Origin: Segetibacter sp.
GTDB lineage: Bacteria > Bacteroidota > Bacteroidia > Chitinophagales > Chitinophagaceae
Length of the DNA stretch: 46,148 nucleotides
NCBI GenBank assembly: GCA_028288485.1
Contig: JAQBNO010000176.1
Span: 1-46,148 of the forward strand
Direction of reading: 5' to 3'
The notes beneath the pieces were generated by a model. The model was not told the DNA's origin. It ran no database searches and saw only the letters and a program-made list of their open reading frames with translations. Positions within the stretch are counted from its first letter, which is position 1, and each line of letters starts with the position of its first letter. Both the position numbers and the translations under genes were made by a program. Positions 12,730 through 42,300 of the stretch are shown here, piece after piece.

Positions 12730-12739
12730 TATATAAAAA

Positions 12740-14227: not shown

Positions 14228-14243
14228 GGGTGTCGCCTTCCGT

Positions 14244-14281: not shown

Positions 14282-14385
14282 TAAACCAGATTTCAACTTC
14301 GATGTTCCTTATATAACACCTAAATAATCAAACGCCTTGCAATTATAACAGGAACAAATTCAACAATTATTAAACAGAAAAAATA

Positions 14386-14820: not shown

Positions 14821-14822
14821 AA

Positions 14823-15290: not shown

Positions 15291-15295
15291 TAGCA

Positions 15296-16143: not shown

Positions 16144-16296
16144 GGGGTATTTGAAAAATATTTTGATATTAAAAAAGATCTGGTCAAAGTTATTTGACAA
16201 AGTAAGCAGGTGAGAGGATGATAATATCAAACGAAAAGCTGGTACAAGAACATAATAAAATGGTAAGGATCTACCTCTTAAATATTACGGTTAATA

Positions 16297-17925: not shown

Positions 17926-17954
17926 AAAGTAATAACACTTTTACAAAATAGAGT

Positions 17955-18248: not shown

Positions 18249-18356
18249 TTTCTTAAAACAGCTGTATCAGGGATTACGTTATGAAACCAGCAAATTGGAT
18301 TTGAAAATGGCTTTAATACATACCAGAGGAAACCGGCAAAAAATAAAATACAGAAT

Positions 18357-18773
18357 ATGGCAACTGTCGACCAGTCGTTCTTAGGCACGGGATGGGGATT
18401 CCCTCCGTCTTTTCGCCGGGAGTTTTACGGTGTTGAAATGCTAGTCGGGGAAGACGATGTAAGAAGCAGCTTACAGATCATACTGTTAACCATTACAGGT
18501 GAAAGGGTCATGTTACCGACTTTTGGCTGCAATCTTCAGCCTCATGTTTTCGACCAAATGAACCCTCCCAATATTGCCCTGATTGAAAAAATAGTAAAGG
18601 AAGCGCTGGTATTACATGAACCAAGAATTACAGTAGAAAACCTTGTATCAACGCCTGATGATTACCGGGGTGTTCTTGAGATCCATATTGAGTACAAGAT
18701 TATCGCAACTAATACGAGATACAATTATGTCTTCCCATTCTATATAAATGAAGCGACCAACATTGAAAAATAA
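18357..18773 (+). CDS. Baseplate wedge protein, gp25-like (Pvc9)
   Basis: GPW/gp25-family protein of 138 aa. The motif DDVRSSLQIILLTITGERVM, then LPTFGCNLQPHVFDQMNP and LVLHEPRITVEN, is diagnostic: the EPR and R-x-x-L-P-x-F-G-like core contacts the sheath at the baseplate. It nucleates sheath assembly. A 234-bp gap then precedes the Pvc11-like gene. A 57-codon ORF overlapping the end of this gene (18748-18921) is not convincing. Confidence 0.94.
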   Translation: MATVDQSFLGTGWGFPPSFRREFYGVEMLVGEDDVRSSLQIILLTITGERVMLPTFGCNLQPHVFDQMNPPNIALIEKIVKEALVLHEPRITVENLVSTPDDYRGVLEIHIEYKIIATNTRYNYVFPFYINEATNIEK

Positions 18774-19007
18774 CGATGGCAGAAAAGGCTCGAAAATTAA
18801 TAATGGAAAATTAAGCGGGATAGATTTGGAAAACGGAATTAAACATAGCGTTTTAGAATGTATAATGTTGGCAGAATCACAAGCATCCGTAGCAAGTCCC
18901 AAAATGCGTTGTGAAGTATAAAAGTAAAAGTGTAAGAACAGAACAAATAAAATTAGCTGTTACAAAGTTTGTTAAACCGGTAGACGGCGAATTTAAAATT
19001 TTTCTCA

Positions 19008-23585: not shown

Positions 23586-23626
23586 TATTTGGAGAGTTAC
23601 CAGGTAATCGTCAAAAAAGTTCCTAT

Positions 23627-23692
23627 TGGTTTGCCGATGAAAGGATTGCGTCGCAACGGTGATGCTATGAAAACCAACGCCGGTATCCAAAG
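23627..23692 (+). repeat. Composite dispersed repeat between the large baseplate genes
   Basis: The first half, 23627-23656 (TGGTTTGCCGA...GATTGCGTCGCAA), matches 45363-45392 at 25 of 30 positions. The second half (CAACGGTGATGCTATGAAAA, 23654-23673) matches the 4019 and 14244 copies. The join is the perfect palindrome TTGCGTCGCAA. The same family sits between sheath and tube genes. Confidence 0.65.
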
Positions 23693-23728
23693 AGAATTCT
23701 AACAAATGGTTAGATAAAATAAAAAAGT

Positions 23729-26700: not shown

Positions 26701-27241
26701 CCAGGAAGAACAGCCTGAAAAGATTAAATACAGTTTTATCATTCACGGTCATAAAGGCATTGTTCTTGCCCAAAGTCCTTTTATTTTCAATAAGCAAACA
26801 AAAATCCAGGCACAACAAAACATTTCCATTCCAGATGATATAGAATTGGAAATTGAGCAATTGATCACCTATTTTGAATTCCAGCTCGACCTATATTGTA
26901 CCGAAAATCCGTGTGACAATAATGAAGATCAGTATTCTTTCAGAACAACGGTAGTATTACCGTGTTGGCCAAAGCGCCTGCGTGATGCAACCTTTCGAAA
27001 CCTGGTTGAAAAGAAGATCGAAACAGAAACGCCGGCTCACGTACACACGAGGGTTGTATGGCTGGGAGTACAGGAAATGCAACGTTTTGAAAAGGTATAT
27101 GCAGAATGGTTGTTGGAGATGGCACAAACTGAAATGCCGGGCTATGAAAAAGTAAATCCGCTGGTTGATGTTTTAAATACTCTTAGGCCTTGCGGTGTTT
27201 GCGAGGACGATTGCAGTCATAACCCTGCTACCTATGGATAA
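23729..27241 (+). CDS. Giant baseplate wedge protein, Pvc12-like
   Basis: Protein of 1170 aa. The N-terminus has the baseplate motif DYNNSDPGITILEAVCYAIT then DLAYRTGF (about 40-68), shared with Pvc12/Afp12. The C-terminal region (about 1075-1150: TVVLPCWPKRLRDATFRNLV, TPAHVHTRVVWL, then MQRFEKVYAEWLLEM) is also characteristic. An insertion at about residues 165-247 is a heptad-like Glu/Lys/Ile coiled coil (RIADINKRTAEISKRITDID...) that I do not expect in the family. Cys pairs appear at DYDCSCDD..KTCHG (about 135-150) and in the C-terminal PCGVCEDDCSH. It partners the Pvc11-like protein in the wedge ring. Confidence 0.92.
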   Translation: MSEQIALRKSNPLLPAEDYVAMRKQGFQAIEKLGSAVWTDYNNSDPGITILEAVCYAITDLAYRTGFEIKDLLTPEELGKDTWKQIFYTARQILHNNPLTISDYRKIIIDVKGVRNAWLTPSKDYEVPVWIDYNYYEKRKDYDCSCDDNKLKTCHGKLGLEPVSEAQTKEWIAKRIADINKRTAEISKRITDIDTRVAAIDAATAASKEGDVGELKIEKAKLLTEKKGLQSENAELAVESKELATPHIFPSKIIEFEGLYNVMVEYEEGIIEEERREVVRQQVVEKLAHRRNLCEDFLSINAVEYLDFGIGASIALYEYADPDEVLAQVFFAIYKYFTPSIPFYTIDQMLQKGYLVDEIFEGPALNHGFVDTAELEKTDLFRDIRLSDIINEVSDIEGIKAVTYLHLPFKGLNDETSGKNYFNEWVEYLKNENKIARIQPAMSQVMFCKERDFITYNTGSAKDKAPARMLKLFKDLKSIERKYKLNGHETDFDVPVGEYMELEDYYPVTYSLPMAYGVSERAGLPVDADDKRKVQALQLKGYLLFFEQLLKDHLVQLNHLRDLFSFDTHVKHSYFIEALTEIDDLKSLIIDHGNHGEGHYKEVLQDFVNSIQSIIETPDIFHKRRNRFLDHMLGRFGEDISEYEAISRWLTPGKVDERLIHDKCGILKNGEYYRISSNRGKGYDYSRMDFWDTENISGAERRIARLLGFEKIERRTLYPRSVVIDAVMEVDPKTKNSVQKKDKKGNPLNVIRLTDPDNNNATLITSVDVKEGCCTETLLNEMLKYADSRKYFKFHDDLKQRSRKTAGLIGTFWFELWDGTDMETAVLLASSERYDNKDNRDNAFKSLQKLMYAINSNEGLHLIEHLLLRPKFDEVFDEVGKPVNVNFLNICLDKCDLGIGLGENTDVPGYRKRIHRIPADKCYDKLPWVLEYLKFNDKTKKYDKAILVQEAFPDGTAVVPLKFRRYEALAKRVKDLHEFGSERINYGIVSNQEEQPEKIKYSFIIHGHKGIVLAQSPFIFNKQTKIQAQQNISIPDDIELEIEQLITYFEFQLDLYCTENPCDNNEDQYSFRTTVVLPCWPKRLRDATFRNLVEKKIETETPAHVHTRVVWLGVQEMQRFEKVYAEWLLEMAQTEMPGYEKVNPLVDVLNTLRPCGVCEDDCSHNPATYG

Positions 27242-27386: not shown

Positions 27387-28790
27387 ATGACAAACCTGAT
27401 AAACCGTTTGCAATTAGATCTGAGCTTTTCGGACCAGGATCACGCCTTTAATATGCGCCACAATTTTGCCCAAACCTACCAGCAGCAAATTGAAGAAGTG
27501 GTTGATTACGTGTGTTCGAAATATGTAGGCGAGTCTGAATGGTTGAAAATCGATAAGCTCGAAATGGACCTGGGGCATTTCATGCCAAATGGCTTCAGGC
27601 ACAACTTTGCCGCGGTATTTTTATTTCATTTCGAAAAAGCATTGACAGCAAAACTTTCTGAAGTTACAACGCAGCAAAGAGAAACTTCACAGCTAATTTC
27701 GCAGGTTGAATTGGTTGAATATTTTTTACAAAACGGAACCTTGCCATGGTTTGCAAATGAAGATGAAATTAATTTAGAGGAATTAATTAATGCGATAGTT
27801 ACCAGGAGACCGGAAGTTTTACAAGTGTTTTTAGAAAGAAACAAGTCGAAGCCAAGTGTGTGGAAAAGGTTGTCGTACCAGGTGCCGGACGAAGTGAAGG
27901 CGACGATTGTGAACTTGTTTGAAGTGCTCAAAAATGCAGAAGATAGAAGCCGCGTTTTGGTACAGGAATTTTTTTATAGTATAGGTAGGATAGGTGGACT
28001 AAACGAAATGAGCGTTATTTATCAAAAGACCAGGAATGTTATTCTTGAAGATGCTCCTGTAATTTTTGAAGATCCTTTCAATGTTAATTTAATCAGGAAG
28101 GTTCTTAGGAAACGTGTTACACTGCTCTTCCCTGAAAATACAAGCGAGGCATCCCTATTTTTTAATAATGAAAATGGGCTGGTTGCAGAAACGCACCTGC
28201 AAAATCACGAACAGGAAGTGTTGGAGAAAGCGAAAGCAGAGGCTATTGAAATGTTGCTGGCACAGGCGACCAAAAACGTGCAACAAAAAGAAGAACGGTT
28301 TGTTGTAAAGCATGCAGGCGTCTTGTTGCTTGCTCCTTTTTTCAATCCCTTTTTTACCAGATTGCAACTACTGGCAGAAAGTGAATGGATAAATAAAGAG
28401 GCTCAGTACAAGGCTGTTCATTTATTAAAGTTCCTGGTTACGGGAAGGCGAAAGTTCCCGGAATTCACACTTATCCTTGAGAAAATTATTTGTGGTCTTG
28501 CAATTGAAGAGCCGGTGCCGTCGGAGATGGAGTTATTAGAAGATGATCTGGCTGAAGGGGTAGATCTGTTGAAGTCAGTAATTGAACATTGGAAAGTGCT
28601 CAAAAATACTTCTGTTGATGGCTTGCGCGAAGCATTTTTAAAACGGGAGGGAATTGTAACCCGAAATGAAAAAGCTTGGCTCGTGCAAGTAGAAAGAAGG
28701 ACGCATGACGTATTATTAGACAGCATTCCCTGGGGGTATTCAACAATTTTACTACCCTGGAACGATTACACGGTTAGTGTAGAATGGTAA
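27387..28790 (+). CDS. Contractile injection system tape measure protein (Pvc14-like)
   Basis: Protein of 467 aa. The N-terminal module (INRLQLDLSFSDQDHAFNMR, QQQIEEVVDYVCSKY, WLKIDKLEMDLGHF) followed by LVEYFLQNGTLPWFANEDEI matches the CIS tape-measure family, whose hallmarks are the I.KLE.DLG and FL..G.LPWWA segments. The rest is predicted largely helical. It is thought to set tube length before export or ejection; its modest length suggests a particle of ordinary size. It sits immediately before the ATPase gene (10-bp gap), as in other eCIS loci. Confidence 0.9.
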   Translation: MTNLINRLQLDLSFSDQDHAFNMRHNFAQTYQQQIEEVVDYVCSKYVGESEWLKIDKLEMDLGHFMPNGFRHNFAAVFLFHFEKALTAKLSEVTTQQRETSQLISQVELVEYFLQNGTLPWFANEDEINLEELINAIVTRRPEVLQVFLERNKSKPSVWKRLSYQVPDEVKATIVNLFEVLKNAEDRSRVLVQEFFYSIGRIGGLNEMSVIYQKTRNVILEDAPVIFEDPFNVNLIRKVLRKRVTLLFPENTSEASLFFNNENGLVAETHLQNHEQEVLEKAKAEAIEMLLAQATKNVQQKEERFVVKHAGVLLLAPFFNPFFTRLQLLAESEWINKEAQYKAVHLLKFLVTGRRKFPEFTLILEKIICGLAIEEPVPSEMELLEDDLAEGVDLLKSVIEHWKVLKNTSVDGLREAFLKREGIVTRNEKAWLVQVERRTHDVLLDSIPWGYSTILLPWNDYTVSVEW

Positions 28791-28800: not shown

Positions 28801-30243
28801 ATGGTGGATCAAGCAGATATAAATGACATCGGTAGTGAAGATAGCCCCCTTCGCCGCAACGCTGACAGTCTTTCAAATGAGATCAACTGGTTTGCAAGAG
28901 TGGTAAACGCTCGCCTGCGGGATTATTTTCCGAAAGAAAGTTTTGGAATAAATGAAGATAAAGATCGAAGCGAGATTGTTACATTCAATGAGGCAACCAA
29001 TGATTCTTTGGTTGATACTACTGTTCCCGACCTTAGTCTTGATCACTCTGTTTATGCTGATTTTGTAAAATATTACAAACTTAACCGGGATGAAAGGCTG
29101 TTGCTCATGCTGGCTATCATCCCACATTTACAACCACATCTATTAGACGTATTTTTTTCAATCAATAAATCATTAGGGCGTGGATATACAGAGTTTGGCG
29201 GTATAAAAGGTAGCAGGCATAGTGGTTTTATTCCAACGATCGAAACAGCCCTTTTCTTGCTGGCTGGTGACAATTTTGCGCATCGTTTTAAATTATATAA
29301 ACTTTTCGAGCCTGATCATATTTTTATTGCTCATAACATCATCACCATAGATCATTCTTCCGGTAACAACGAACCCTATTACAGCAGCTCCATTGGCATT
29401 TCAGAAGAGTACGTCGATTTTTTTACTACCGGAAATCTCAGAAAGCCAAATTTTAGTATTGAGTTTCCTGCAAAGCGGTTGGAAAACCAAATGTCATGGA
29501 ACGACCTGGTAGTAGACGATTATACGACAAAGCAATTAGATGAGCTACGCATCTGGTTGCAACATGGCCGCACGCTATATGAAGACTGGGGGATGAGGAA
29601 AAAACTTAAACCGGGTTATAAGGCACTCTTTCATGGTCCTCCCGGGACCGGTAAAACCCTTACAGCTGCTCTCTTAGGCAAACTATACAATCTTGATGTT
29701 TACAGGATCGACCTTTCTATGGTCATCTCGAAATATATTGGAGAAACTGAAAAGAATCTTGAAAAAGTTTTTAAAAAAGCAGAGAATAAAAACTGGATCT
29801 TGTTTTTTGACGAAGCCGATGCGCTGTTTGGCAAGCGCACATCTATATCTGATTCGCACGATAAATATGCCAACCAGGAAATTGCTTATTTATTGCAAAG
29901 GTTAGAGGACTATCCCGGCCTGGTTATTCTGGCCAGCAATATGCGAAATAATGTTGACGAAGCTTTTACCCGCAGGCTTCAGTCTGTTATTCATTTTCAA
30001 AAGCCACAATCAAAAGAGCGTTACAAGATCTGGACCGGTGCATTCAGTTCGGGTTGCCTGCCTCCCGCTAAAGAAGAGGTAGAGCGAATAGCGCAGCAAT
30101 ACGAACTTTCAGGAGGTTCCATTATGAATGTTGTTCAATTCGCCTCTTTGATGGCTTTAAACAGAAATAATAATGAAATATTGGTCGACGATATTTTACA
30201 AGGAATAAAAAAGGAATATAAAAAAGAAGGAAAAATTGTTTGA
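28801..30243 (+). CDS. AAA+ ATPase of the eCIS (Pvc15-like)
   Basis: Protein of 480 aa with an N-terminal helical region (about 1-250) and a classical AAA+ domain. Walker A is GPPGTGKT (279-286), Walker B is WILFFDEADALFG (D337, E338), sensor 1 is VILASNMRNNVD and the arginine-finger region is AFTRRLQSVI. The insert KRTSISDSHDKYANQEIAYL is typical of Pvc15/Afp15-type and other CDC48-like ATPases in CIS loci. In PVC this ATPase is needed for assembly or for loading cargo, so its position directly upstream of the DUF4157 genes is meaningful. All catalytic residues are intact. Confidence 0.95.
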   Translation: MVDQADINDIGSEDSPLRRNADSLSNEINWFARVVNARLRDYFPKESFGINEDKDRSEIVTFNEATNDSLVDTTVPDLSLDHSVYADFVKYYKLNRDERLLLMLAIIPHLQPHLLDVFFSINKSLGRGYTEFGGIKGSRHSGFIPTIETALFLLAGDNFAHRFKLYKLFEPDHIFIAHNIITIDHSSGNNEPYYSSSIGISEEYVDFFTTGNLRKPNFSIEFPAKRLENQMSWNDLVVDDYTTKQLDELRIWLQHGRTLYEDWGMRKKLKPGYKALFHGPPGTGKTLTAALLGKLYNLDVYRIDLSMVISKYIGETEKNLEKVFKKAENKNWILFFDEADALFGKRTSISDSHDKYANQEIAYLLQRLEDYPGLVILASNMRNNVDEAFTRRLQSVIHFQKPQSKERYKIWTGAFSSGCLPPAKEEVERIAQQYELSGGSIMNVVQFASLMALNRNNNEILVDDILQGIKKEYKKEGKIV

Positions 30244-30333: not shown

Positions 30334-31782
30334 ATGTTTGCACAAAAGTCTGTTTTCGATAACCAGGGGCGGTCGCAGCAAAGTTTTGCGTCTGCAGCAG
30401 TACCACAAATTGTGATACAGCCTAAGCTGGTCATTGGTGCAGTAAACGACCCTCTCGAGCAGGAAGCGGATACAATGGCGGATGTGGTGATGAAAATGCC
30501 GGAAATGCCTTCAGTTCGGCGTAAATGTGCTGATTGCGAACGGGAGGAAGAACAAATAAAAAGGAAGCCGTTAACATCGCTGGTAACCTCTTTCTTGCAG
30601 ACAAAAAGTGAAACGGGGTCAGTTGCAACTGATGCTGTTACCAATAAAATACTTGCAACCAAAGGGAGTGGGAGCAGTATGGATGATTCGACAAAATCAT
30701 TCATGGAAAGCAGGTTTGGAACTGATTTCTCTAGTGTAAGAATTCATAATAATGACGATGCAGCCCGCATGTCGACCGAGTTAAATGCAAAAGCATTTAC
30801 TGTCGGCAATGATATTTATTTTAACTCCGGCGCTTACGTATCTACATCTACGGAAGCGAGAAAACTGCTTGCCCACGAGTTAACGCACGTAGTACAACAA
30901 GGAGGAATAAACAGTACCCAAAAAGTTCAGCGGTTTTGTACTTCCCCAGCAGATTGCAGTGCCCCCATTCCAGGTTCTGCAGCCGGTTTCGGTGCAAGCG
31001 AAGCTTCGAATGAGGACGTTGCAAGGGGGCGACGGAAAAGATTGACTCCTGCCCTTGCCCTTGGTTCAGGACATGGCGGAAGTGCACGACAATTAGAATT
31101 ATTTTTTGAATCACAGTCGCCCGGGTTATTGAGCAATTTGCACGGAATATTTATTGACTGGGATTTATCTTCAGGCACCGGGGCACTCACTACCTCTTGT
31201 GCCGACTGGATCATCGATGGTTTACCGGCAGGAACTATTCCGACTGGAATGGCTGGAGCAGTAAAACCATGTGTTTTTGTTCATGCAAATTTAAACCAGG
31301 AAGCATTTGCCTTTAATACCACTGCTGACGTCACTATCGGAGGTGTACCCCGTGAAGATTGGAGAGTTGCTACCCTTCAGGTACTTACACATGAAGCGCA
31401 GCATGTTATTTTTGACACAGCGACTCATCCAGCATTTCCATTGTGCTCAAGAGCAGCAATCGAAGATGAACTTTCAGAACTGTCAGCAGAAATGAGTGAG
31501 TTCCCGGTGATGTTCAGAGCAATTCCTGCCGGTGCCCCTGCAGGCGATCCTGCCCGTGTAAATCTTGCCAATTGGTTTACTAATATCATTACTAATGATT
31601 CTGAAGGAATTGAAGGAATTTTAAAAACGATCGGATGCCGGTGTAAGTGCACTGAAGTCGATGCTTATGTAACAGATACTTTCAATTTTACTTCGTCTTC
31701 CTGGACCGCCGCTGAAAAAACAGCATTTAATACTGAGTTGAATAGGCCCGGCTGGAGTATTCGTTGGCCAATTGCTCCCTAA
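30334..31782 (+). CDS. DUF4157 (eCIS core) cargo candidate 1 with C-terminal metallopeptidase-like domain
   Basis: Protein of 482 aa. Residues 1-190 form the shared eCIS module: a PKLVIGAVNDPLEQEADTMA box, a RRKCADCEREEEQ CxxC patch, TKSFMESRFGTDFSSVRIH and the DUF4157 motif HELTH (181-185) with VVQQ. The C-terminal ~290 residues are unrelated to the other four proteins. They carry a second HExxH (HEAQH, 353-357) followed by acidic residues (AIEDELSELSAEMSE) that could supply the third zinc ligand. A pair of CxC motifs (CRCKC) lies near 435. It has no signal peptide, fitting cytoplasmic loading into the tube. I infer a metallopeptidase-type effector. Confidence 0.88.
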   Translation: MFAQKSVFDNQGRSQQSFASAAVPQIVIQPKLVIGAVNDPLEQEADTMADVVMKMPEMPSVRRKCADCEREEEQIKRKPLTSLVTSFLQTKSETGSVATDAVTNKILATKGSGSSMDDSTKSFMESRFGTDFSSVRIHNNDDAARMSTELNAKAFTVGNDIYFNSGAYVSTSTEARKLLAHELTHVVQQGGINSTQKVQRFCTSPADCSAPIPGSAAGFGASEASNEDVARGRRKRLTPALALGSGHGGSARQLELFFESQSPGLLSNLHGIFIDWDLSSGTGALTTSCADWIIDGLPAGTIPTGMAGAVKPCVFVHANLNQEAFAFNTTADVTIGGVPREDWRVATLQVLTHEAQHVIFDTATHPAFPLCSRAAIEDELSELSAEMSEFPVMFRAIPAGAPAGDPARVNLANWFTNIITNDSEGIEGILKTIGCRCKCTEVDAYVTDTFNFTSSSWTAAEKTAFNTELNRPGWSIRWPIAP

Positions 31783-31822
31783 CTTTCCTTAATGATAGAG
31801 AAACGATTAATATATAAATGAA

Positions 31823-33055
31823 ATGCAGATTAAAACATCGACCCTGCCAACAGCGGAAGGCGCTTCAGTTAGAGCTGCCGGAGAGGTAGAAAAAGCTCAT
31901 TCATTTCAGCCGCAGCTTAAAGAAAGTGGGAGCCCCATAGCCATTCAGTACAATCTATTAATTGGCGGAGCAAATGACTACCATGAACAGGAAGCTGATG
32001 CAATCTCTGAAACAGTCACGAGAATGCCCCTAATGCCGTTAGTTCAACGTACATGTGCTCAGTGCCGTGACCAGGACGAACAAGTAAATAGGAAGCCATT
32101 AGCATCCATTGTCACTCCCTTTATACATGCAAAAAGTGAAAATGGATTAGCAGCAAATAACGATGTTTCTAATAGGATTCTTGCGAGTAAGGGAGGTGGG
32201 AGCAGTTTGGATGATTCGACTAAATCTTTCATGGAAAGTAGGTTCGGAGCTGATTTTTCCGATGTGAGAATTCATAATAACAACGATGCGGCAAATATGT
32301 CTGCTGAATTGCAGGCAAAAGCATTTACTGTGGGCAGCGATATTTATTTTAATTCCGGCACATATTCATCAGAATCTTCTGAAGGTAGAAAACTACTTGC
32401 ACACGAATTAACTCATACGATTCAACAAGGTGCAGTGGGATCAACAAAGATTCAACCATTTGTTCAAAGACAAGCTGCAGCTGTTCCAAGAAGGACAATT
32501 TGGGTAAACGTTGGTTTCGACTCAAGTGCACAGGCAAATGAAGAGACCATGACAAAGCTTAGGGCTTCGATTTCAGTTGAGAAAGCCGCCATGCTCAGCT
32601 GTTGCAGCACCCATGCAACAGGCTGCAATATTGATGTAAAAACAAATTATGACTGGGTTCGCCACAATAAACCTGCTCCGGCAGATCGTGATTATGATAA
32701 TGATAACGCAGCTGACAGGACACTTCGCGACACCAACCTTGGTCGTATTGCTGGTCCGGCAGGAGGGTTAAAGGTGTTGGTTACAGAGTCAACACTTAGT
32801 CAAACCTGGCAGGGGGCACGTATTTTTCCTCGTGCAAATACAGGGGCGAGTGGCGTATTGTGGAATCGAGGCCTTGCAGCAAATGACACCATTGCTCACG
32901 AAGCAGGACATGCAGCAGGGTATGTGGGCGATGACGAAGGTGGAGCGCATAGCTCCGATGCTCATAACCTTATGAGTCCTGGTTCAATACGCCTAGCAGG
33001 TGCAGCACCTGACCAGAACTGGTGCACACAAATGGCAGCTACGGCCCAATCATAA
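31823..33055 (+). CDS. DUF4157 cargo candidate 2 with metzincin-like C-terminus
   Basis: Protein of 410 aa. The N-terminal eCIS module (about 1-205) has the NDYHEQEADAISE box, QRTCAQC, TKSFMESRFGADFSDVRIH and HELTH at 194-198. The C-terminus (about 215-410) starts TIWVNVGFDSSAQANEETMT and contains HEAGHAAGYVGDDEGGAH (from 359) followed by DAHNLMSPG. That is an extended HExxHxxG zinc motif with a possible Asp ligand and a Met-turn-like NLM, the pattern of metzincin peptidases, although the third ligand is one residue displaced from the standard HExxHxxGxxH/D spacing. Several Cys (CCSTHATGC) may form disulfides after delivery. It starts 40 bp after cargo candidate 1. Confidence 0.88.
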   Translation: MQIKTSTLPTAEGASVRAAGEVEKAHSFQPQLKESGSPIAIQYNLLIGGANDYHEQEADAISETVTRMPLMPLVQRTCAQCRDQDEQVNRKPLASIVTPFIHAKSENGLAANNDVSNRILASKGGGSSLDDSTKSFMESRFGADFSDVRIHNNNDAANMSAELQAKAFTVGSDIYFNSGTYSSESSEGRKLLAHELTHTIQQGAVGSTKIQPFVQRQAAAVPRRTIWVNVGFDSSAQANEETMTKLRASISVEKAAMLSCCSTHATGCNIDVKTNYDWVRHNKPAPADRDYDNDNAADRTLRDTNLGRIAGPAGGLKVLVTESTLSQTWQGARIFPRANTGASGVLWNRGLAANDTIAHEAGHAAGYVGDDEGGAHSSDAHNLMSPGSIRLAGAAPDQNWCTQMAATAQS

Positions 33056-33141
33056 ATAATTACCTATCGGCAGTTGCAGTTTAAATAGTTTTCAAATTTT
33101 TGCAGTTTGGCTGTCCGTAACATCAAACTTAAAATACCACG

Positions 33142-34275
33142 ATGCCGACTCATATTTCCAGGTCAGTTAAAAAAAAGAATTATTCAGAAGCATCTGCAAT
33201 TCTTAATCAGAATGACCATTCAGGTAGTCGTGACATGTTTTCCGCTCGAATGCAACCGGTTCCTATTCAAAGAAAGTGTAGCTATTGCGGGCATGACGAT
33301 ATCGTGCAAAGAGAGCGTTTGGCTTCATTCATTCAAAAAGAGCGTTCAGAAAATAGTGTAGCCGCTGAACAAATCGCGATTGGTATAGACTCTACAAAAG
33401 GAAGCGGTAAACCGTTAGAAAGCTCGGCTAAAAGTTTTATGGAAAGCAGGTTTGGAGCTTCGTTTTCTGATGTGCGAATCCATACAGGTGGTGCAGCTGA
33501 ACAATTGTCAGAAGCATTAAATGCTAATGCATTTACTACAGGAAACGATATCTACTTTAATACCGGTAAATATTCGCCCGAAACACGAAGTGGAAAGCAA
33601 TTGCTTGCTCACGAGCTAACACATACGATACAGCAGGGTGTGGCACCAGAATCGGTTCAAAAAGAAGAAAAAGACAAAACTTTTGCAGAAAAGGCAGACA
33701 TTGATTTTAAGGTTTTACCTCCTGATTTTCAATTGCGGTTATTTCATTTTCTGCTTGAAGCTGATACCAGCAAGGTGCACCTGGATTTTAATACGAGAAC
33801 CTTTATGACGGGGTTGTCGTACCAGTATGGAAGTGCCCTCTCATTTAATATGCGTTTCCGCGATTTCTCCAGCAAATTAGGATGGGAGCCGGGAAGTAAT
33901 AATCTTTCATTGGGAATGAATTACCGCGGCTTTAGCGGGAGTTTTGGTGTAAATCCGGAGCAGCAAAGGCTTGGTCTCGGGATTCATTATGGCGCTCCTT
34001 TATTGCCTTTCTCAGACCAGATGGGGAAAACGTTTACATCTGGCGTTGGTGCTTTCACTCATTTTGCGTCCGGTCTTCCAGCCGGGTTAAACAATCCTTT
34101 GGCATATTATGAACAAAATAAAGGGGACATAGAAAACATTTCCAAGACTGCTGACCTTGTAAAACAAATTACTGCTGCAGGCAAAAGTAAGATTCGGTTT
34201 GGGGGTGATTTTTCGTTGACGTACGACCCGGTGAGTAAGCTTGTGGTTACAGCTAAAGTTGGTGTCTTGTTTTAA
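33142..34275 (+). CDS. DUF4157 cargo candidate 3 with beta-rich C-terminus
   Basis: Protein of 377 aa. The shared N-terminal module is shorter and more diverged: the PL..EAD box is reduced, QRKCSYCGHDD is kept, then SAKSFMESRFGASFSDVRIH and HELTH at 157-161. The C-terminal ~205 residues are a series of amphipathic strands with alternating polar and hydrophobic residues and many Gly, Tyr and Phe (KVHLDFNTRTFMTGLSYQYG, LSLGMNYRGFSGSFGV, RLGLGIHYGAPLLPF). It ends SLTYDPVSKLVVTAKVGVLF with a terminal Phe, as outer-membrane barrels do. Without a signal peptide it is not a normal outer-membrane protein; a pore-forming or membrane-inserting cargo is a reasonable inference. Confidence 0.87.
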   Translation: MPTHISRSVKKKNYSEASAILNQNDHSGSRDMFSARMQPVPIQRKCSYCGHDDIVQRERLASFIQKERSENSVAAEQIAIGIDSTKGSGKPLESSAKSFMESRFGASFSDVRIHTGGAAEQLSEALNANAFTTGNDIYFNTGKYSPETRSGKQLLAHELTHTIQQGVAPESVQKEEKDKTFAEKADIDFKVLPPDFQLRLFHFLLEADTSKVHLDFNTRTFMTGLSYQYGSALSFNMRFRDFSSKLGWEPGSNNLSLGMNYRGFSGSFGVNPEQQRLGLGIHYGAPLLPFSDQMGKTFTSGVGAFTHFASGLPAGLNNPLAYYEQNKGDIENISKTADLVKQITAAGKSKIRFGGDFSLTYDPVSKLVVTAKVGVLF

Positions 34276-34335
34276 AATACATCAGTAAGTGTATTGAAAT
34301 TCAAGATTTCAAAGTATCTGCCAAATAAGAAATTA

Positions 34336-36327
34336 ATGCATGAACAGTTATCCATATCAAAGCAACACGAATCTGCTCCTGCCGTTGCGCTCGTATTGCC
34401 CGCAATGGATACAGTTGAACAAGATCTATATATAAAATCGCTGGAGCGTTTTCCCCTACAACCGAAGTTATCAATAGGCGCAGTTGACGATCCGCTTGAA
34501 GACGAAGCGGATGCAATGGCAGATAAAGTGATGAGAACGACTGAACCGTCTTTTATTCAACGCAAATGTGACCACTGTCAAGAGGAAGAGAAGCTGCAAA
34601 GAAAACCATCGATTTCGTTTATTAAACGAAAAGGAATAGAGGGCAGTCCAGTTGCAACTGGGTCAATAGAAAATAAGATCGAGTCTTCAAAAGGAGTAGG
34701 TTCTCCTTTACCAGCACCAACAAAAAGCTTTATGGAAAGCCGCTTCGACACTGACTTTTCTAATGTTCGCATTCATACCGGACCTTATGCTACAGAGATG
34801 TCGAAGGAATTGAATGCACAAGCCTTTACCGTTGCAAATGACATCTATTTTAACGCAGGGAAGTTTTCTCCTGGATCGTCGCACGGCAAACATTTACTTG
34901 CACATGAGTTGACTCATACAATACAGCAACGGTCAACTGATATTAGCCGCCGTATACAGCGGGTGTGTCCACCTCGACAGCATAATGAAACGGCACGTTC
35001 AGCTACTTTGCCTGGTATTTTGCCTGTAAATGTTATTTTGTCTACTGCTGATAATAGTCTTATTATTCAGGATTTTGCTGTTGGAAGCAGTGCCCTTCCT
35101 CCAAATGTTTTAAACAACCCTGATTGGCAAAGAACTATGTCGATTGTCGCAGGTACGCCATCGATGAATGTAGCGATGCAAGGTCATACTGATTGTGCTG
35201 GTTCAGCGGCGGAAAACTTATCATTACGTGAACAACGGGTTGCAACAGTTTTAAGTGTAATGCCGGTCGCAGCGAGGGCAAAAGTAGTTCCTTTCCTTTT
35301 GTATACTACTGCCCAGGTTTACTTGACCGCCAATGATACCGCTGAATCACGGGCAGGAAACCGGGCTGTTAGGATTATGTTTAGGGCAGCAGATCCTACC
35401 GGCGACTGTGATACTATCGGTCGCGCTGCGAATTTGGATCAATATATTTTTATGGTTACCTGCGTCCAAAACCGTTTACATCTAACTGCCAGTGCAGATA
35501 CTCGTAGGCTGATATCGGTTTTAAGGCAAATTTATTACGGAAATGCTCCCTGGAGTGGGTCGCGAAATTCTGTTTGGAATAATGTTATTACTGACCGTCC
35601 ATGGAATGCAGGTACTGATCCGTCTTCTCTGTTAGGTTCACATCTTTTTAATGCTTTGCAAACGAGCCAGGTGGTAGAGGGAGTTGATATCGGGCATCTA
35701 TTAACAGGAATTGATGCTATGTTCAATCCTCATAATGTTGAAATTCCTTTTGGACCTATTACTTCGGTCACAAATATAATTAATGAAGAATGGGCTACCT
35801 GGGCTGGTGATGTAGGATCATCTGTAGGTGAGTGGGCTATAGAGACTATGTATGCTGGTCGTGACCAGGACTTAGATACTTTTTTTTCCCGGTTTGCAGG
35901 AAATTCAGATCTGTGGGGAAATATAGAAAGCTTTGCAATACGGCTGGGAATTAATGGAGGGACGGCAGCCGGACAATTAGGACGAGCTTTTGTTCCCGGT
36001 CAAACCTTTTCAGAAATTTTAATGAATGCTTTTCGCATAACATCATCGGCGGCCGGCCGAAGGAATCAAAGCCGGGTAAGGGATTTTGTAGAAGCTTACG
36101 GAGGTATAACCAGTAGCAATGCAATTACAAATCAGCCGGCATTAGTCAATCGTTTAAAACCAGCTATTAGAGAATTTGCACAGCTATATAGTATGGATAG
36201 ACTTTTAAGGCGGGGTTATTTTGGTGGAGGATCCTCTCAGCCTACTGGTTCTTTTATTCCTTACTTAGATCGGGGAATAGATGAAATGACACAACGGTTT
36301 GTAAATTGGCTACAACAGCATTTGTAA
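34336..36327 (+). CDS. DUF4157 cargo candidate 4 with OmpA-like domain and large unknown C-terminus
   Basis: Protein of 663 aa from the ATG at 34336. A TTG at 34294 gives a longer frame, but the ATG start aligns (MHEQLSISKQ with MPEQIAIPKQ) with candidate 5 and places HELTH at residue 190 in both. Residues 1-205 are the eCIS module. About 225-365 resemble an OmpA-like fold (NVAMQGHTDCAGSAAENLSL then REQRVATVLS and AGNRAVRIMF). The last ~290 residues are unrecognised, with a DIGHLLTGIDA segment and later WATWAGDVGSSVGEW whose His/Asp residues could form an active site. The gene follows candidate 3 by 60 bp. Confidence 0.87.
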   Translation: MHEQLSISKQHESAPAVALVLPAMDTVEQDLYIKSLERFPLQPKLSIGAVDDPLEDEADAMADKVMRTTEPSFIQRKCDHCQEEEKLQRKPSISFIKRKGIEGSPVATGSIENKIESSKGVGSPLPAPTKSFMESRFDTDFSNVRIHTGPYATEMSKELNAQAFTVANDIYFNAGKFSPGSSHGKHLLAHELTHTIQQRSTDISRRIQRVCPPRQHNETARSATLPGILPVNVILSTADNSLIIQDFAVGSSALPPNVLNNPDWQRTMSIVAGTPSMNVAMQGHTDCAGSAAENLSLREQRVATVLSVMPVAARAKVVPFLLYTTAQVYLTANDTAESRAGNRAVRIMFRAADPTGDCDTIGRAANLDQYIFMVTCVQNRLHLTASADTRRLISVLRQIYYGNAPWSGSRNSVWNNVITDRPWNAGTDPSSLLGSHLFNALQTSQVVEGVDIGHLLTGIDAMFNPHNVEIPFGPITSVTNIINEEWATWAGDVGSSVGEWAIETMYAGRDQDLDTFFSRFAGNSDLWGNIESFAIRLGINGGTAAGQLGRAFVPGQTFSEILMNAFRITSSAAGRRNQSRVRDFVEAYGGITSSNAITNQPALVNRLKPAIREFAQLYSMDRLLRRGYFGGGSSQPTGSFIPYLDRGIDEMTQRFVNWLQQHL

Positions 36328-36360
36328 ACTGATGAAAAACGACACAAAAAGACAATATTA

Positions 36361-37884
36361 ATGCCGGAACAAATTGCAATACCAAAACAACTTGAAAATG
36401 CACAGGTAGCGGCATCTGTATTGCCAGTGGTGGAAACGCTTAGACAAGATTTGAATTTTGAATCGGTGCAAAGACTTCCAATTCAAAGGAGGTTATCTAT
36501 AGGCGCAACAGACGATCCTCTTGAAGATGAAGCTGATGCAATGGCAGACAAAGTAATGAGAATGCCCGAACAAACTCTGATCCAACGGAAATGTGAGCAT
36601 TGTGAAGAGGAAGAGAAACTGCAAAGAAAACCGTTGATTTCCTTTATTCAACGAAAAGGAACGGAGGTGGGTCCAGTCGTTAGTGAGTCAATAGAAAACA
36701 AGATCGGGGCTTCAAAAGGAGTAGGTTTTCCTTTACCGGGGCAGACAAAGAGCTTTATGGAAAGCAGGTTTGAAACTGACTTTTCCAATATTAGAATTCA
36801 TACCGGATCTGATGCTTCTGACATGTCAAAAGAATTGAATGCACAAGCGTTTACCCTTGCAAGTGACATCTATTTTAACTCAGGAAAATTTTCCCCCGAA
36901 TCATCGGACGGAAAACATTTACTGGCGCATGAACTGACGCATACAATACAACAAAGCCCCTTTGCGACAGCTAAGCTACAGCGGCAAACAGTAATGCACG
37001 GGGGAGCAAGCGCAGCGCCGGCTAACTGGGCAAGCCAGGTAACTGCAGCAACTACCCCGGCATTGAAAGCGGCGTTAATACAAAGTGTTGTTGGCCCTTC
37101 AGTTACAATAAGTGACAGAACAGCTCAAAGTAGTGGCGATAGTACTCCTGATCCTGCTCATTTATTGCCTTATACGTCCTCAAGTGCAACAGTTAATTTT
37201 GATAACGACCTTCAATCTAAGGCTGCGCGCCTAGGTGGACGTTCCCTGAGTTCTAATGCAGGTTATACTTTCACTCATAACAACAATAGCTATGTTGTTC
37301 TTAGCGCAATAGCTATTGATACAGGAAATTATTACAATATCATTTATACATTAAATCATGAGCTCGATCATGTGAGACAAGATATTGCTCATAGTACATT
37401 GACCGGAAATGCGTCTGAACTTGACGCATGGACAAGTTCCTTTATCAGGGAGTTTCATAGAGGTTATATTATACAGGAGAATTCCACCACGGGGAGTTGC
37501 CAGGTGCGTTTGTCACCGCAATATGCGCCATTACTGGGATATTATGAAGCCTCTGGTGTTCCTGCTGCTGAAAAAACAAGAGCTGTGCAGCGGATCAGCT
37601 CCTATTTCAATTCGATTATTCAACCTCACGCCGGGCACCTGGCAATGTTCAGGTATTGGCTGAGGCGTTCACTTAACCAGTCAACTCATGCTTTGGCTGA
37701 CGATTTAATTACCGCTTTAAGTTTGCAAATTGCTGCAACGGATGCGTTGGGAACCTATACCCGGTTTAGTTGCAGCGGTATTACTTCGCTAACTTTTCCG
37801 TCAGCTCCGTCAGCATCTTTGCCTACATTTCCTTCACCCGGCGGAGCTAGCTCAGGTTCTGTTGCTCCACCTTCACATCCATAA
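36361..37884 (+). CDS. DUF4157 cargo candidate 5 with second HExxH and Ser/Pro tail
   Basis: Protein of 507 aa. The N-terminal module (1-205) is very close to that of candidate 4 (ATDDPLEDEADAMADKVMR, QRKCEHCEEEEKLQRKP, HELTH 190-194). The C-terminal part is different: NHELDHVRQDIAHST gives a second zincin-type HExxH (333-337), followed by ASELDAWTSSFIREF, whose acidic residues could complete a metal site. The end is a Ser/Pro-rich linker (FPSAPSASLPTFPSPGGAS...). The frame stays open for 60 codons beyond the TAA at 37882, so a longer ancestral product is possible. Likely role: metallopeptidase-type cargo, by inference. Confidence 0.87.
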   Translation: MPEQIAIPKQLENAQVAASVLPVVETLRQDLNFESVQRLPIQRRLSIGATDDPLEDEADAMADKVMRMPEQTLIQRKCEHCEEEEKLQRKPLISFIQRKGTEVGPVVSESIENKIGASKGVGFPLPGQTKSFMESRFETDFSNIRIHTGSDASDMSKELNAQAFTLASDIYFNSGKFSPESSDGKHLLAHELTHTIQQSPFATAKLQRQTVMHGGASAAPANWASQVTAATTPALKAALIQSVVGPSVTISDRTAQSSGDSTPDPAHLLPYTSSSATVNFDNDLQSKAARLGGRSLSSNAGYTFTHNNNSYVVLSAIAIDTGNYYNIIYTLNHELDHVRQDIAHSTLTGNASELDAWTSSFIREFHRGYIIQENSTTGSCQVRLSPQYAPLLGYYEASGVPAAEKTRAVQRISSYFNSIIQPHAGHLAMFRYWLRRSLNQSTHALADDLITALSLQIAATDALGTYTRFSCSGITSLTFPSAPSASLPTFPSPGGASSGSVAPPSHP

Positions 37885-38570
37885 CAAGATGGAAAGAACA
37901 GTATAAATATCACCCCGACACATGCTCAACCTGCTTCTAAAGAGCCTGGTTCATCAGTATATGATACGGTTGCAAACAAAAGTGATGCACCGGGTTATAA
38001 TCGCCTGCTGCCTATAAAAGAAATTATTTATTGGTACTACTTATTTTACATAAGTCGCTCATTTTAATTCCATCGATACAAGAATATGCTGTAGTTACTT
38101 TTACTACATTTCTTTGACTTACAGCAGTGCCGGATGCGCAGGATTTTGAACGTTGTTACAACAGAATGAAAATTATCATAATCACCAGTAGCATAAACAG
38201 GGAGAAAACATCGTGAATATCTAATGTGCTTACCCATCTTTTGGGTCTTTTTACTAAATCTTCCAGTATAGGAGCAGGCATATATTTAAGTTGTCTGTCT
38301 AAAAATAAGTAGGAGATACTCTTATATCAAGAGATGTTGATATGTTATTTGTCATCTTCGTTTATCAACATTTATTTTAGCGGGTGAAGGAATAATGGTC
38401 AAAAAAGGCAGGAGAATATGATAAGAATAGGATAAAAGTACAGAGGAGAGCAGAATATATTCCTTTTAGTGTAATAGGAGATAAGGTAAGGAGTTGAAGT
38501 AACAGGTCTTTAGGTTACTTTCAATCGCCCGGACGTTTGGAAGATACAATTACAGGAAGTACTTCTCCTT
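37885..38570 (+). other. Gene-poor region after the cargo array
   Basis: The first 180 bases remain open in the frame of the preceding gene (translation begins QDGKNSINITPTHAQPASKE) up to a stop at 38065. After that the sequence is AT-rich, with only one small minus-strand ORF (38156-38281). I see no terminator, RNA gene or insertion sequence. Confidence 0.45.
38156..38281 (-). CDS. Possible 41-aa single-span membrane peptide
   Basis: The frame reads MPAPILEDLVKRPKRWVSTL followed by DIHDVFSLFMLLVIMIIFILL: a basic N-terminal segment and one strong hydrophobic helix to the end. The frame stays open for about 19 codons upstream of the ATG. It could be a real small membrane protein or the remnant of a longer one. 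No function is proposed. Confidence 0.3.
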   Translation of the reverse strand: MPAPILEDLVKRPKRWVSTLDIHDVFSLFMLLVIMIIFILL

Positions 38571-38825
38571 CTAGTTATTCACTGATTTAGCAGTAATGTG
38601 TGTACTAAAAAGAAGATAGGTGACAGGAATTTGACTTAACGCATAAGCTTTAATTTGCCTTCTAAACCTATTCAAATAACTTATTTTAACTTCAATAAAT
38701 ACGTTGTCGATCTTAAACAGTTCCTCCTTAAATAACTCACCGCTGTTTTCACAGATCTTATCAGCGTCACATAACAAAAACTTTTGTTGATCTTTTTCTA
38801 GACAGTTGAATTCTTCTGGTGTCAT
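38571..38825 (-). CDS. Small hypothetical cytoplasmic protein, 84 aa
   Basis: The start MTPEEFNCLEKDQQKFLLCD followed by ...ICENSGELFKEELFKIDNVFIEVKISYL resembles small orphan proteins common in Bacteroidota that begin with [ML]...EFN.L....k and contain a short beta-hairpin (Y.l..FfVEv.Y). There is no signal peptide or membrane segment. It stands alone on the minus strand between the eCIS operon and the surface-protein gene. Family membership is a soft impression; the coding call rests on composition and a plausible start. Confidence 0.55.
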   Translation of the reverse strand: MTPEEFNCLEKDQQKFLLCDADKICENSGELFKEELFKIDNVFIEVKISYLNRFRRQIKAYALSQIPVTYLLFSTHITAKSVNN

Positions 38826-39065: not shown

Positions 39066-39269
39066 ATGACAACAAGAGTTATTCTGTCTCTTCAGTTAAT
39101 AATAATAGAGCTACTACTACCGGAATTATTTCCTGCTGCAGGGAAACTGAAAGCTCAAGTGAGTGACACAACGAAAGTTGAACTACAATCTACTGCTGGT
39201 TCCACAAAATCGCAAACATCAACAATTAAGATCTCTCCAATCAGTCCTCAAAAGTTATTTGGGCAATAA
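39066..39269 (+). CDS. Short secreted-like ORF, 67 aa
   Basis: A hydrophobic N-terminus (VILSLQLIIIELLLPELF) precedes AAGKLKAQVSDTTKVELQST, which looks like a signal peptide cleaved before QVSDTTK, followed by a Ser/Thr-rich stretch. The 15-mer AGTGAGTGACACAAC, part of the dispersed repeat family, falls inside it (39158-39172). It could be the remnant of a longer secreted protein. It lies 81 bp before the large surface-protein gene. Confidence 0.35.
   Translation: MTTRVILSLQLIIIELLLPELFPAAGKLKAQVSDTTKVELQSTAGSTKSQTSTIKISPISPQKLFGQ
39158..39172 (+). repeat. 15-mer of the dispersed family (AGTGAGTGACACAAC)
   Basis: Exact match to the first 15 bases of the copy at 4019 and to the reverse complement of 14260-14274 and 45176-45190. 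Here similarity stops after this core (next bases GAAAG), so chance or coding constraint (QVSDTT) cannot be excluded. Confidence 0.4.
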
Positions 39270-39349: not shown

Positions 39350-42300
39350 ATGAAATTTTTTACCCTCGTTGTTTTTTTACTAACCGTAACCTTAAACGGG
39401 TTTGCGCAGTCGCCGACCATTTCGCAAAATAGCGGTGCCACCACCAGTAGTGTATGTAGTAATGGCACTGCTGTTTTAGCCGTTACAGCAAGCCCCGGCT
39501 TAGGAGGCTCGCTCAGTTATAGCTGGGAGGCGTCAACAGACGGGGGAAGTTCATGGAACGTAATAACAGAAGGGGGAAACTTTTCCGGAACAACTACTTC
39601 CAGCTTAAGTATAATTAACCCGGTCAATGGAGATAAGTACCGATCTACCGTAACTGAAACTCCTGGTGAGCTTTCTGCTACCAGTTCTGCTTTTACCCTG
39701 AGTGTTTCTCCGGTTTCTGTTGGTGGTACCATTGCCGGAAGCGCTGCAGTTTGCTCCGGTACAAACTCTACCACCTTAACCCTAAGTGACTATACAGGTA
39801 GTATTATACGGTGGGAACTTTCCAAGAATAATTTCTCTACTAAAACTAATATTGCAAATACAACAAACACTTTAACTGCAACCAATTTAACTGCTACTAC
39901 ACAGTACAGGGCAGTAATTCAAAGTGGTGTTTGTGCTGTTGAAAACAGTAGTGTTGGAACGGTAACCGTAAACGCCACAGCAGGTGGTTACGCCAGTGCT
40001 CCAACTTCAGTTTGTTACGGTAGTTCTTTTCCCGTAGTCTTAAAAAACAGTGTAGGAAGCGTTCTAAAATGGCAGTCGTCTACCGATGATTTTACAAGTG
40101 TTATTACTGACATTGCAAATACAACAACCAATTTAACGGTAACGAACCTAACAGTGGATTCAAAGTACAGGGCAGTTGTTCAGTTCGGCAGTTGTGCCGT
40201 TGTTATCAGCGTTTCTGCAACAGTAACAGTAAACCCGCCATCAGTTGGTGGAACTGTTTCGGGCAGTGCAACTGTTTGTTCCGGTACAAATTCTACCAGT
40301 TTTACGCTAAGTGGTTACGACGGAAGCGTAGTGCGGTGGGAATCGTCTACTAATAATTTTATCAGTAAGAGTAATATTGTCAATACTACCACGAGTTTAA
40401 TAGTAACTAATCTTACAGCTACGACCTATTACCGTGCCGTTGTAAAAAATGGCAGTTGCGCAAATGATTTTAGCACGAAGGGAATAGTAACAGTAACTCC
40501 GGTAAGCGTAGGCGGTACGATTGCAGGCAGCACCTCCGTTTGCTCGGGTACAAATTCTGCTACTTTAACCTTAAGCGGGCATACCGGCATTGTGGTGAAA
40601 TGGCAGGAATCTACTGATAATTTCAGTTCAGTTATTACAGATGTTGCTAACACAACAACCAGTTTAACTGCAACCAATCTTGCAGCTACTACTAAATATC
40701 GTGCTGTTGTTCAGAATGGTAGTTGTGCGAGTGTTAACAGCGCTATAGCAACAGTAACAGTAAGTCCGGTTAGTGTAGGTGGTAGTATTGCCGGAGCAAC
40801 AGTTTGTACCGGTACAAATTCAACTACGTTAACACTTACCGATCATACTGGTGCTGTGGTAAGGTGGCAGTCGTCTGTTAATAATTTCAGCACCGTTACT
40901 AATATAGTTAATACAACCACGAGTTTAACGGCAACCAATCTTACAGCTACTACCCAATATCGTGCAGTTGTTCAAAGTGGCAGTTGCACAAGTGTGAATA
41001 GCGCTGCAGCAACAGTAGCTGTTAGTCCCGTTAGTGTAGGCGGTACTATTGCAGGTAGTGCAACTGTATGTCCAGGTACAAATTCTACTACATTCACATT
41101 AAGTGGTTATACCGGCAGTATTGTAAAGTGGCAGTCATCGTTAGATAATTTCTCTACTGTTGACGATATAATTAATACAACTACCAGTTTAACTGCAACC
41201 AATCTTACCTCTACTACACAGTTTCGTGCGGTTATTGAAAGTGGCAGTTGTGCAAGTGTTAACAGTTCTTCAGCAACAGTAACAGTTACCCCGGTTAGTG
41301 TAGGTGGTATTGTTGCAGGTAGTGCAACGGCGTGTCCGGGTACAAATTCTACTACTTTAACTTTGAGTGGTCATACCGGCGCAGTGGTAAAATGGCAGTC
41401 GTCAACTGATGATTTCAGTGCAGTCGTTACTGATATTGCCAACACATCAACTAGTTTAACTGCAACCAATCTTGTTGTCGCTACTGGCTATCGCGCTGTG
41501 GTTTCAAATGGTGGTTGTACAAGTGCCAACAGTACAACAGCCACAGTAACTATTGCTCCTGTTAGCGTGGGTGGCACTATAGCGGGCAGCGCTACTGAGT
41601 GTTCCGGTACAAACTCTACTACTTTAACCTTAAGTGGTCAAACCGGGAGTGTTGTAAAATGGCAATCATCTTCAAATAATTTCTCTACTGTTACAGATAT
41701 TAATAATACAACAACCGTTTTAACTGCAACCAATCTTACAACTACTACGCAATATCGTGCAGTTGTCCAAAACGGTGGTTGTGCAAGTGCGAACAGTTCT
41801 ACAGCAACAATAACCATTACTCCTGCCAGTGCCGCTGGTACTATTGCAGGTGGTGCTACTGTATGTTCCGGCACAAATTCTACTAATTTAACCTTGAGTG
41901 GTTATACCGGCAGTATTGTGAAATGGCAGTTTTCTACTGATAATTTCGGCAGTACCATCTTAGATATTGCCAATACGACTACCACTTTAACTGTTACTAA
42001 CTTAACTACCACTACACAATACCGCGCTGTAGTTCAAAACGGCTCGTGCGCATCAGCAACTTCAGCCCCAACTTCTGTTACAGTCGTAACCGGGCAGTGG
42101 GTTGGTGGTTCCTCTGGCGATTGGAATAATCCTGCAAACTGGTGTGGTGGTATACCAACTTCTTCTACCGATATCAGCATCCCTGCAAATAGCACAGTTT
42201 ATCTTCAATCTGACAACGGGGTTGTAAATTCTGTAACAATAGCTGCAAATGCATCTGTAGTAATGACAGGAAGCTATAACCTTGCCATTGCAGCAGGAGG

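Follow-up and report, generated by a model that had tools for sequence, protein, structure and literature searches.

Five consecutive genes on the forward strand of a 46,148-bp stretch of the genome of Segetibacter sp. (assembly GCA_028288485.1, contig JAQBNO010000176.1, positions 1-46148; this whole stretch is called the window below) are likely the cargo set of the extracellular contractile injection system (eCIS) encoded just upstream of them. Their products share a front end that ends at the motif HELTHxxQQ, behind which five mutually unrelated tails begin, and in related loci the payloads differ at this same border. The layout has been known since 2012; the window is a five-gene member with three zincin-type tails, one porin-like tail and one OmpA-like tail, and the exchange border, together with the apparent relocation of a candidate zinc-ligand box, may be the parts that a specialist does not expect.

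The initial annotation of this DNA had described a tandem array of five DUF4157 proteins directly after the eCIS ATPase gene, and both points hold: all five open reading frames (ORFs) match PF13699 (eCIS_core, formerly DUF4157; E ≤ 4e-31, 107-111 bits against a cut-off of 22), and the first begins 90 bp past the gene of an AAA ATPase (28801-30243, forward strand, 480 aa; PF00004, E 1.3e-26). The genes, separated by gaps of 40, 86, 18 and 33 bp, encode E1 (30334-31782, 482 aa; E 4e-31), E2 (31823-33055, 410 aa), E3 (33142-34275, 377 aa), E4 (34294-36327, 677 aa from a TTG start; E 4e-31) and E5 (36361-37884, 507 aa; E 3.4e-31). Front-end homology and motifs divide E1 into a front end (30334-30900) and a tail (30901-31779); the other tails occupy 32429-33052 (E2), 33637-34272 (E3), 34930-36324 (E4) and 36955-37881 (E5). 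The real start of E4 is probably the ATG at 34336 rather than the TTG, because the start of E5 aligns with residue 15 of E4.

Alignment of the N-termini confirms that the front ends are homologous (46-72% identity in local BLASTP alignments) and that the homology ends at HELTHxxQQ. The earlier description of a constant front end of ~200 aa stands in this respect and needs correction in others: the E3 front end is shorter (165 aa) and has no PL.QEAD box, the box of E2 reads YHEQEAD, and the G of KSFMESRFG is replaced by D in E4 and by E in E5. The box, of which NDPLEQEAD and DDPLEDEAD are examples in the window, lies at 30445-30471 in E1 (NDPLEQEAD, with E42 as a candidate third zinc ligand), 31973-31999 in E2, 34486-34512 in E4 and 36511-36537 in E5. 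A CxxC patch, mostly KCAxCE and usually with only two cysteines, is found in the leaders of E1 to E5 (residues 65-68 of E1, for example) and in 146 of 203 cargo leaders, compared with 7.3 expected from shuffling. The H, E, H, Q and Q of HExxHxxQQ are conserved at 98-100% among 202 representative cargo proteins, the His of VR[IV]H is 99% conserved, and HExxH is kept at the end of the core in 218 of 222 proteins. In a structure model of E3, residues 1-69 have pLDDT mostly below 50 and the core (about 70-170) mostly above 90, and the modelled core stops with the HExxH helix. A front-end profile found no relative in PDB at E ≤ 1.

Each protein may be read as four parts in order: a leader, the eCIS_core domain with HELTHxxQQ as its end (HELTHVVQQ at 30874-30900 in E1, the end of the constant module and the edge of payload exchange), a short linker rich in Q and R, and a payload of its own. 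The ATPase and the packing machinery would recognise the common front end, and any of the five proteins could be loaded into the tube and released on contraction, by analogy with the AlgoCIS particle discussed below.

The border between front end and payload

Within the window, the DNA of E4 and E5 is 80% identical up to the last base of HELTHTIQQ, and the similarity stops exactly there; E1 and E2 are 73% identical, with homology ending 13 bp before the same border. Over the first 90 nt past the border, both pairs drop to 20-33% ungapped identity. The wider comparison drew on 91 records, which include two fetched twice (L026/L084 and L043/L086) and were picked for front-end similarity or domain presence, so that frequencies among them are not population estimates. 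The 219 tails of at least 60 aa fall into 121 families (three shorter tails were left out; 203 groups were kept for the HExxH count), and the two tails belong to a common family in only 4 of 262 same-locus pairs. A tree of 90 of the 222 front ends, built by a quick method and containing many weak and some long branches, clusters by array (28 label changes, where shuffling gives a mean of 62.5 and 0 of 200 shuffles are as low) and unites E1 with E2 (99% support) and E4 with E5 (96%).

Front ends and tails have partly separate histories, as judged from front-end identity: the median is 67.9% for proteins of the same locus with different tails (231 pairs), 61.2% for the same tail family in different loci (153 pairs), and 54.5% where neither is in common (600 pairs sampled from 20,115 background pairs), the copies L084 and L086 having been left out. 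The relative of the E1 tail (a single record, fetched twice) comes at ranks 147-148 of 221 when ordered by front end, and the front end nearest to that of E1 is its neighbour E2; tail relatives rank 45-144 for E3 and 181 for E4.

Junctions were defined by blastn matches of at least 72% identity among the 91 records, each match starting 200 bp or more before a cargo gene and ending within that gene in both records; pairs fetched twice were left out. All nine ends of syntenic homology fall within -13 to +4 bp of the last base of HELTHxxQQ; about seven are independent, as L011 and L016 are near-copies. Homology must end at the border wherever tails differ, and the informative part is therefore the identity before the border. 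Between L017 and L021 it stays at 94-99% until ~100 bp past the gene start, falls to 63-80% and is finally 52%, and in gene 5 of L018 and its close relative L020 it is 93-100%, then 68-82%, then 54%. Such a drop within the front end is clear in these two of six pairs, moderate in two and not evident in two. The clear drops are the pattern expected from crossover between diverged front ends. In slot 2, the payloads of L018 and L020 differ, that of L020 being a 59% relative of slot 7 of L018, and the two loci become similar again near the beginning of the following gene.

Replacement of the C-terminus behind a conserved N-terminal module, as in polymorphic toxins, is accordingly visible in related loci, in agreement with the initial annotation, which had taken the array for a common module with exchangeable payloads beside an eCIS chassis. 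The front end may double as a recombination arm: if two cargo genes crossed over within their front ends, everything downstream, payload included, would be swapped, and the loading module, to judge from loci related to the window's, would stay unbroken.

The five tails

That the tails share nothing obvious, as had been stated, is true of their overall sequence (no mutual BLASTP match below E 2) and less so of their motifs, for a second HExxH occurs in E1 (HEAQH, residues 353-357), E2 (HEAGH, 359-363) and E5 (HELDH, 333-337). Pairwise hhalign comparison of these three tails gives probabilities of 3-4% (E 0.011-0.012), and the E1/E5 and E2/E5 matches consist of the HExxH stretch alone. Neither this comparison nor that of the tails with eleven window proteins (ten of the chassis and a NikA-like protein) yields a convincing match, the best being E4 against the ATPase (E 0.008); homology of the tails to one another and to structural eCIS parts was what the initial annotation had named as fatal to its proposal. 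The tails of E1 to E4 recur in other eCIS_core proteins (24-62% identity). For the cargo proteins, PHROGs returned only families of unknown function (E 3.5e-4 for the OmpA-like part of E4), and PADLOC returned nothing at E ≤ 0.01.

The E1 tail, related to L043_11311 (29% identity over 302 columns), is likely a zincin-type protein of no assigned class. The E2 tail is likely a metzincin-like protease: its structure model has a metzincin fold, a PDB search gives weak matches of snapalysin type (E 0.1), and E2 and its two closest relatives keep an HxSD further on. It is called metzincin-like only, because the spacing of the consensus motif HExxHxxGxxH/D is not exact in E2, which reads HEAGHAAGYVGDD with G after Gxx. 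In L013 (9890-11608), an E2-type tail is followed by a glycine-rich extension that reads like beta-barrel strands.

The E3 tail, in which the model shows a porin-like beta sheet and a helical insert, is likely a membrane-active, beta-barrel-like domain (7 of its 8 strands were assessed for alternation, W and Y being counted by choice as lipid-facing); Foldseek found no match to E3 at E ≤ 0.001 in PDB or among viral models. Tails of the E3 type also occur in proteins of 256 and 258 aa with a short leader and no HExxH (L109, 1363-2133; L110, 1348-2124), from another family of the order.

E4 likely combines an OmpA-like domain, perhaps peptidoglycan-binding, with a distal part of ~315 aa of no assigned kind. 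The OmpA-like domain (about 35074-35379, forward strand; residues 261-362) matches NF053611 (E 1.1e-6) and OmpA-like chains in PDB (E 0.0084 and weaker), and its likeness to OmpA-like peptidoglycan binders is at the domain level only, its 28.5 bits lying below the curated family score of 175. The E5 tail is likely an orphan with an HExxH motif: in 345 genomes of the class it matched only itself. Neither it nor the distal part of E4 found anything in 28 chosen eCIS_core-bearing genomes of the family, in a search without a positive control, and the E1 and E5 tails found nothing useful in PDB.

Position of a candidate zinc-ligand box

In PVC-metallopeptidases, the zinc-binding glutamate is placed on a third helix, which follows HExxH (PMC3482391), whereas conservation in the window ends at HExxHxxQQ and a similar box stands upstream in four of the five proteins. 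The C-terminal metallopeptidase domain of VgrG2b (PMC6899460) is likewise a DUF4157-annotated zincin with HExxH; there the third ligand is E983, 44 residues past the second His (H939), and it is this domain that acts as the toxin, unlike the situation in the window. A tentative reading is that the cargo front end is a circularly permuted zincin, in which the helix of the third ligand (LExEAD) has moved from behind HExxH into the leader.

A conserved third-ligand Glu helix in the gluzincin order HExxH...E is not found in the cargo. Past HExxH in the 202 cargo proteins (ungapped), Q at +8 is conserved at 98%, the best residue is at 41% at +9 and 13% at +13, none exceeds 41% from +9 to +59, and none exceeds 22% from +12 onward; a downstream Glu at a fixed place was accordingly rejected as the third ligand. 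Stand-alone PF13699 proteins have the box (LExEAD/FExEAR) after HExxH in 24 of 30 cases by a loose expression and in 8 of 30 by E.[EDQ]A[DN], the remainder of the 24 mostly reading EAR in place of EAD, in line with the third-helix glutamate of PMC3482391 and PMC6899460. By neither expression does any of the 30 have the box upstream, where only 12 have at least 30 residues.

Three regular expressions for the box were tried on the same 203 cargo proteins. With E.[EDQ]A[DN], the 195 one-domain proteins have the box upstream only in 149 cases, downstream only in 5, on both sides in none and on neither in 41 (Fisher P 6e-4, the true weight of which is lower because three of the five downstream cases are from one array, L087). 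With E.[ED]A[DRE], the corresponding counts for all 203 are 145, 6, 3 and 49, and with E..A[DNRE] they are 154, 5, 15 and 29, this last expression being too loose since shuffles alone give 46 upstream and 14 downstream. Among proteins of later loci that were new to these sets, the 14 high-scoring ones have the box upstream in 12, downstream in 1 and on neither side in 1, and the 21 low-scoring ones have it downstream in 8, upstream in 1 (apparently by accident) and on neither side in 12; none has both (P 2.4e-4). In a subset, the phylum of a gammaproteobacterial record, the high-scoring proteins have the box upstream in 8, downstream in 1 and on neither side in 1 of 10, and the low-scoring ones have it downstream in 5, upstream in 1 and on neither side in 11 of 17 (P 0.011). 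This recount left out seven proteins seen before and five that either had two core domains or duplicated another protein; an earlier count (P 1.4e-5) was dropped as non-independent, as seven of its proteins were already in the earlier sets and the match places in G495 are those of G145, a genome sampled from the window's family. G495 is the genome of L073, a record titled Beijerinckiaceae bacterium, and the coincidence means that this title probably names the wrong organism.

Several observations weigh against a permutation: the box is short, 41 of the 195 proteins and E3 have none, and comparison of the two boxes by profile is weak, with 6 of 30 stand-alone proteins beating the best of 1500 decoys and, in the reverse direction, 7 of 203 cargo proteins (5 in the leader and 2 after QQ). 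The His of VR[IV]H is an alternative candidate for the third ligand. The stand-alone relative L149 found no match in PDB at E ≤ 5, and no treatment of permutation in the PF13699 family was found in the available parts of the open-licence literature.

It is doubtful that the core domain is an autoprotease that frees the payload during or after export, a role that is compatible with the five genes being a cargo set. It was proposed in PMC3482391 from the N-terminal position and the signature HExxHxxQ-E, and if the domain is a permuted zincin, all three ligands would be present in four of the five front ends. E3, however, lacks the candidate Glu of the box and has a modelled core that ends at the HExxH helix, yet its payload frame is intact, and no downstream Glu is conserved in register.

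Comparable systems, alternatives and genomic setting

Contact-dependent growth inhibition (CDI) and Rhs systems are polymorphic toxins that, like the cargo genes described here, combine a common delivery module with C-termini that are replaced at a defined border. The window differs from them in that immunity genes are not interleaved and that another cargo gene, with its front end and tail, appears to be the donor. Zhang et al. 2012 (PMC3482391) described PVC-metallopeptidase (DUF4157, PF13699) toxins with a constant N-terminal HExxH domain and highly variable C-termini, metallopeptidase and Tox-OmpA tails being among those listed, and, as in the window, these toxins are encoded next to a phage-tail-like system that includes an AAA ATPase, and immunity genes are often absent. 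The tube of AlgoCIS is filled by two DUF4157 proteins, Cgo1 and Cgo2, which load independently; after contraction Cgo1 is missing and Cgo2 is much reduced (PMC8894135). As in the window, both are encoded in the eCIS cluster and combine a similar N-terminus, disordered in Cgo1 and Cgo2, with different C-termini, that of Cgo1 being a predicted metalloprotease; AlgoCIS has two such genes, with products shown in particles (PMC8894135), whereas the window has five, which are likened to Cgo1 and Cgo2 by description.

Among the eCIS-associated toxins EAT1-17 (PMC8213781, PMC11297309), EAT14 of Chitinophaga rupis DSM 21039 is toxic to E. coli and yeast (PMC11297309), and its domain set is that of the first gene of the C. 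rupis array (eCIS_core, LysM and Transglut_prok), which lies beside an ATPase 76% identical to that of the window. The five window proteins have no transglutaminase or LysM match in Pfam and are likened to these toxins by description only. In the C. rupis array, another eCIS_core protein (L017, 9896-12472) has a VanY D-Ala-D-Ala carboxypeptidase tail (E 6.6e-23).

A run of five had been considered notable, and it is not exceptional: 7 other records of the 91 have five to eight eCIS_core genes (eight in the Aureisphaera galaxeae locus, seven in two records and five in four others), with the provisos that L018 and its close relative L020 are both counted and that in some loci the genes are not all adjacent.

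It is improbable that the DUF4157 proteins stay in the producer and serve other cargo there, whether as chaperones, as loaders or as maturation proteases. PMC11297309 speculates that DUF4157 is an effector chaperone in cis or in trans, and retention of HExxH in 218 of 222 proteins would suit such an activity. Cgo1 and Cgo2, on the other hand, sit in the tube lumen (PMC8894135), growth inhibition by Cgo1 is independent of its metalloprotease motifs (PMC8894135), and 121 tail families are too diverse for a common helper role. Less probable still, the tails might be structural or adaptor parts of the eCIS, for the genes lie within the chassis cluster and the predicted sheet of E3 could belong to a membrane or structural part; against this stand the lack of a convincing match to the eleven window proteins and the VanY, transglutaminase and M14-like tails of other arrays. 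The least probable alternative is an array of decaying duplicates without function, which would suit the lack of relatives of the E5 tail and is at odds with five open frames, the invariant residues kept in the front ends and the recurrence of four tails elsewhere.

Against interpretation of the genes as an exchangeable cargo set, it has to be considered that toxin activity of the five tails is putative, and that no tail of the five matches Pfam above its cut-off; the OmpA-like and structural assignments are weak, being below curated cut-offs or of middling Z. For antibacterial cargo, the absence of an interleaved immunity gene is odd: the gaps after E1 to E4, of 18-86 bp, are too short to contain one, and after E5 there are only small ORFs before 39350, among them 38571-38825 (reverse strand) and 39066-39269 (forward strand). 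This absence fits the remark in PMC3482391 that such toxins are possibly aimed at distant organisms. Without its box, E3 makes the front end not fully constant. Separate histories of front end and tail appear clear for E1, E3 and E4 only; the tail relatives of E2 have front-end ranks of 5, 7, 18, 37, 49 and 87 of 221, two of them staying close, and the likeness of front ends within a locus could partly mirror shared host ancestry. The drop in identity before the border is moderate or not evident in four of the six pairs, and exchange is observed in related loci, not near the window's own lineage.

The chassis that would deliver this cargo is encoded on the forward strand in a single cluster with, by Pfam, a sheath, tube, spike/hub, PAAR, gp25, tape measure, AAA ATPase and Pvc16-type protein. 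The cluster runs from 10924 to the array and ends with the ATPase gene at 30243; the span of the chassis proper is taken as 10924-27241. It comprises genes for Pvc16_N (10924), an unassigned ORF without a Pfam match (11539-12726), the sheath (12740; Phage_sheath_1 just below its cut-off, Phage_sheath_1C above), two tube proteins (14386 and 14823), CIS_tube (15460), the hub/spike (16297), PAAR (17955), gp25 (18357) and two large, probable baseplate proteins (19008 and 23729; NCBIfam TIGR02243, E 4.8e-5 and 9.6e-5, below the cut-off), and it is followed by the tape measure protein CIS_TMP (27387-28790; PF19268, E 4.5e-105). Pfam matches no examined chassis protein to a tail fibre family, 19008-23582 lying outside the scan.

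The ATPase is 70-76% identical to those adjoining arrays in L009, L010, L015, L017, L018 and L026, the closest among 13 loci compared being that of C. rupis. An eCIS_core match occurs in 44 of 147 sampled genomes of the family; within the genus, only 2 of 9 other genomes have strong eCIS_core cargo, with a chassis ATPase 41-48% identical to that of the window. Directly before the eCIS cluster are a tRNA-Pro gene (9570-9644) and a gene for a NikA-like mobilisation protein (9742-10146; PF21983, E 5.3e-11), and in a genome of the same genus (G148) the full tRNA gene has a partial copy ~0.9 kb away, which is the pattern of an integration scar. An integrated element is not established, because no second tRNA-Pro copy or attachment-site (att) repeat is found elsewhere in the window. 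Past the stop of E5, 60 in-frame codons remain open (37885-38064), with no start codon noted, and further downstream (39350-45001) is the gene of a protein of 1883 aa that contains eight Ig_7 (CHU_C-associated) stretches and weakly matches Por_Secre_tail.

If the cargo front end is a permuted zincin, HELTHxxQQ would be the last residues of the domain and thus a clean edge at which payloads could be attached or exchanged without touching it; this would explain why the domain ends exactly where payloads begin, would predict that members without the box, such as E3, retain the loading role and lose the zinc chemistry, and would offer a direct test of the role of DUF4157. As a cargo set, the tails of E1 to E5 provide candidate proteases and a candidate membrane-active domain, and an injection particle of this kind could change what it delivers by keeping its loading module and swapping the payload at one fixed border.

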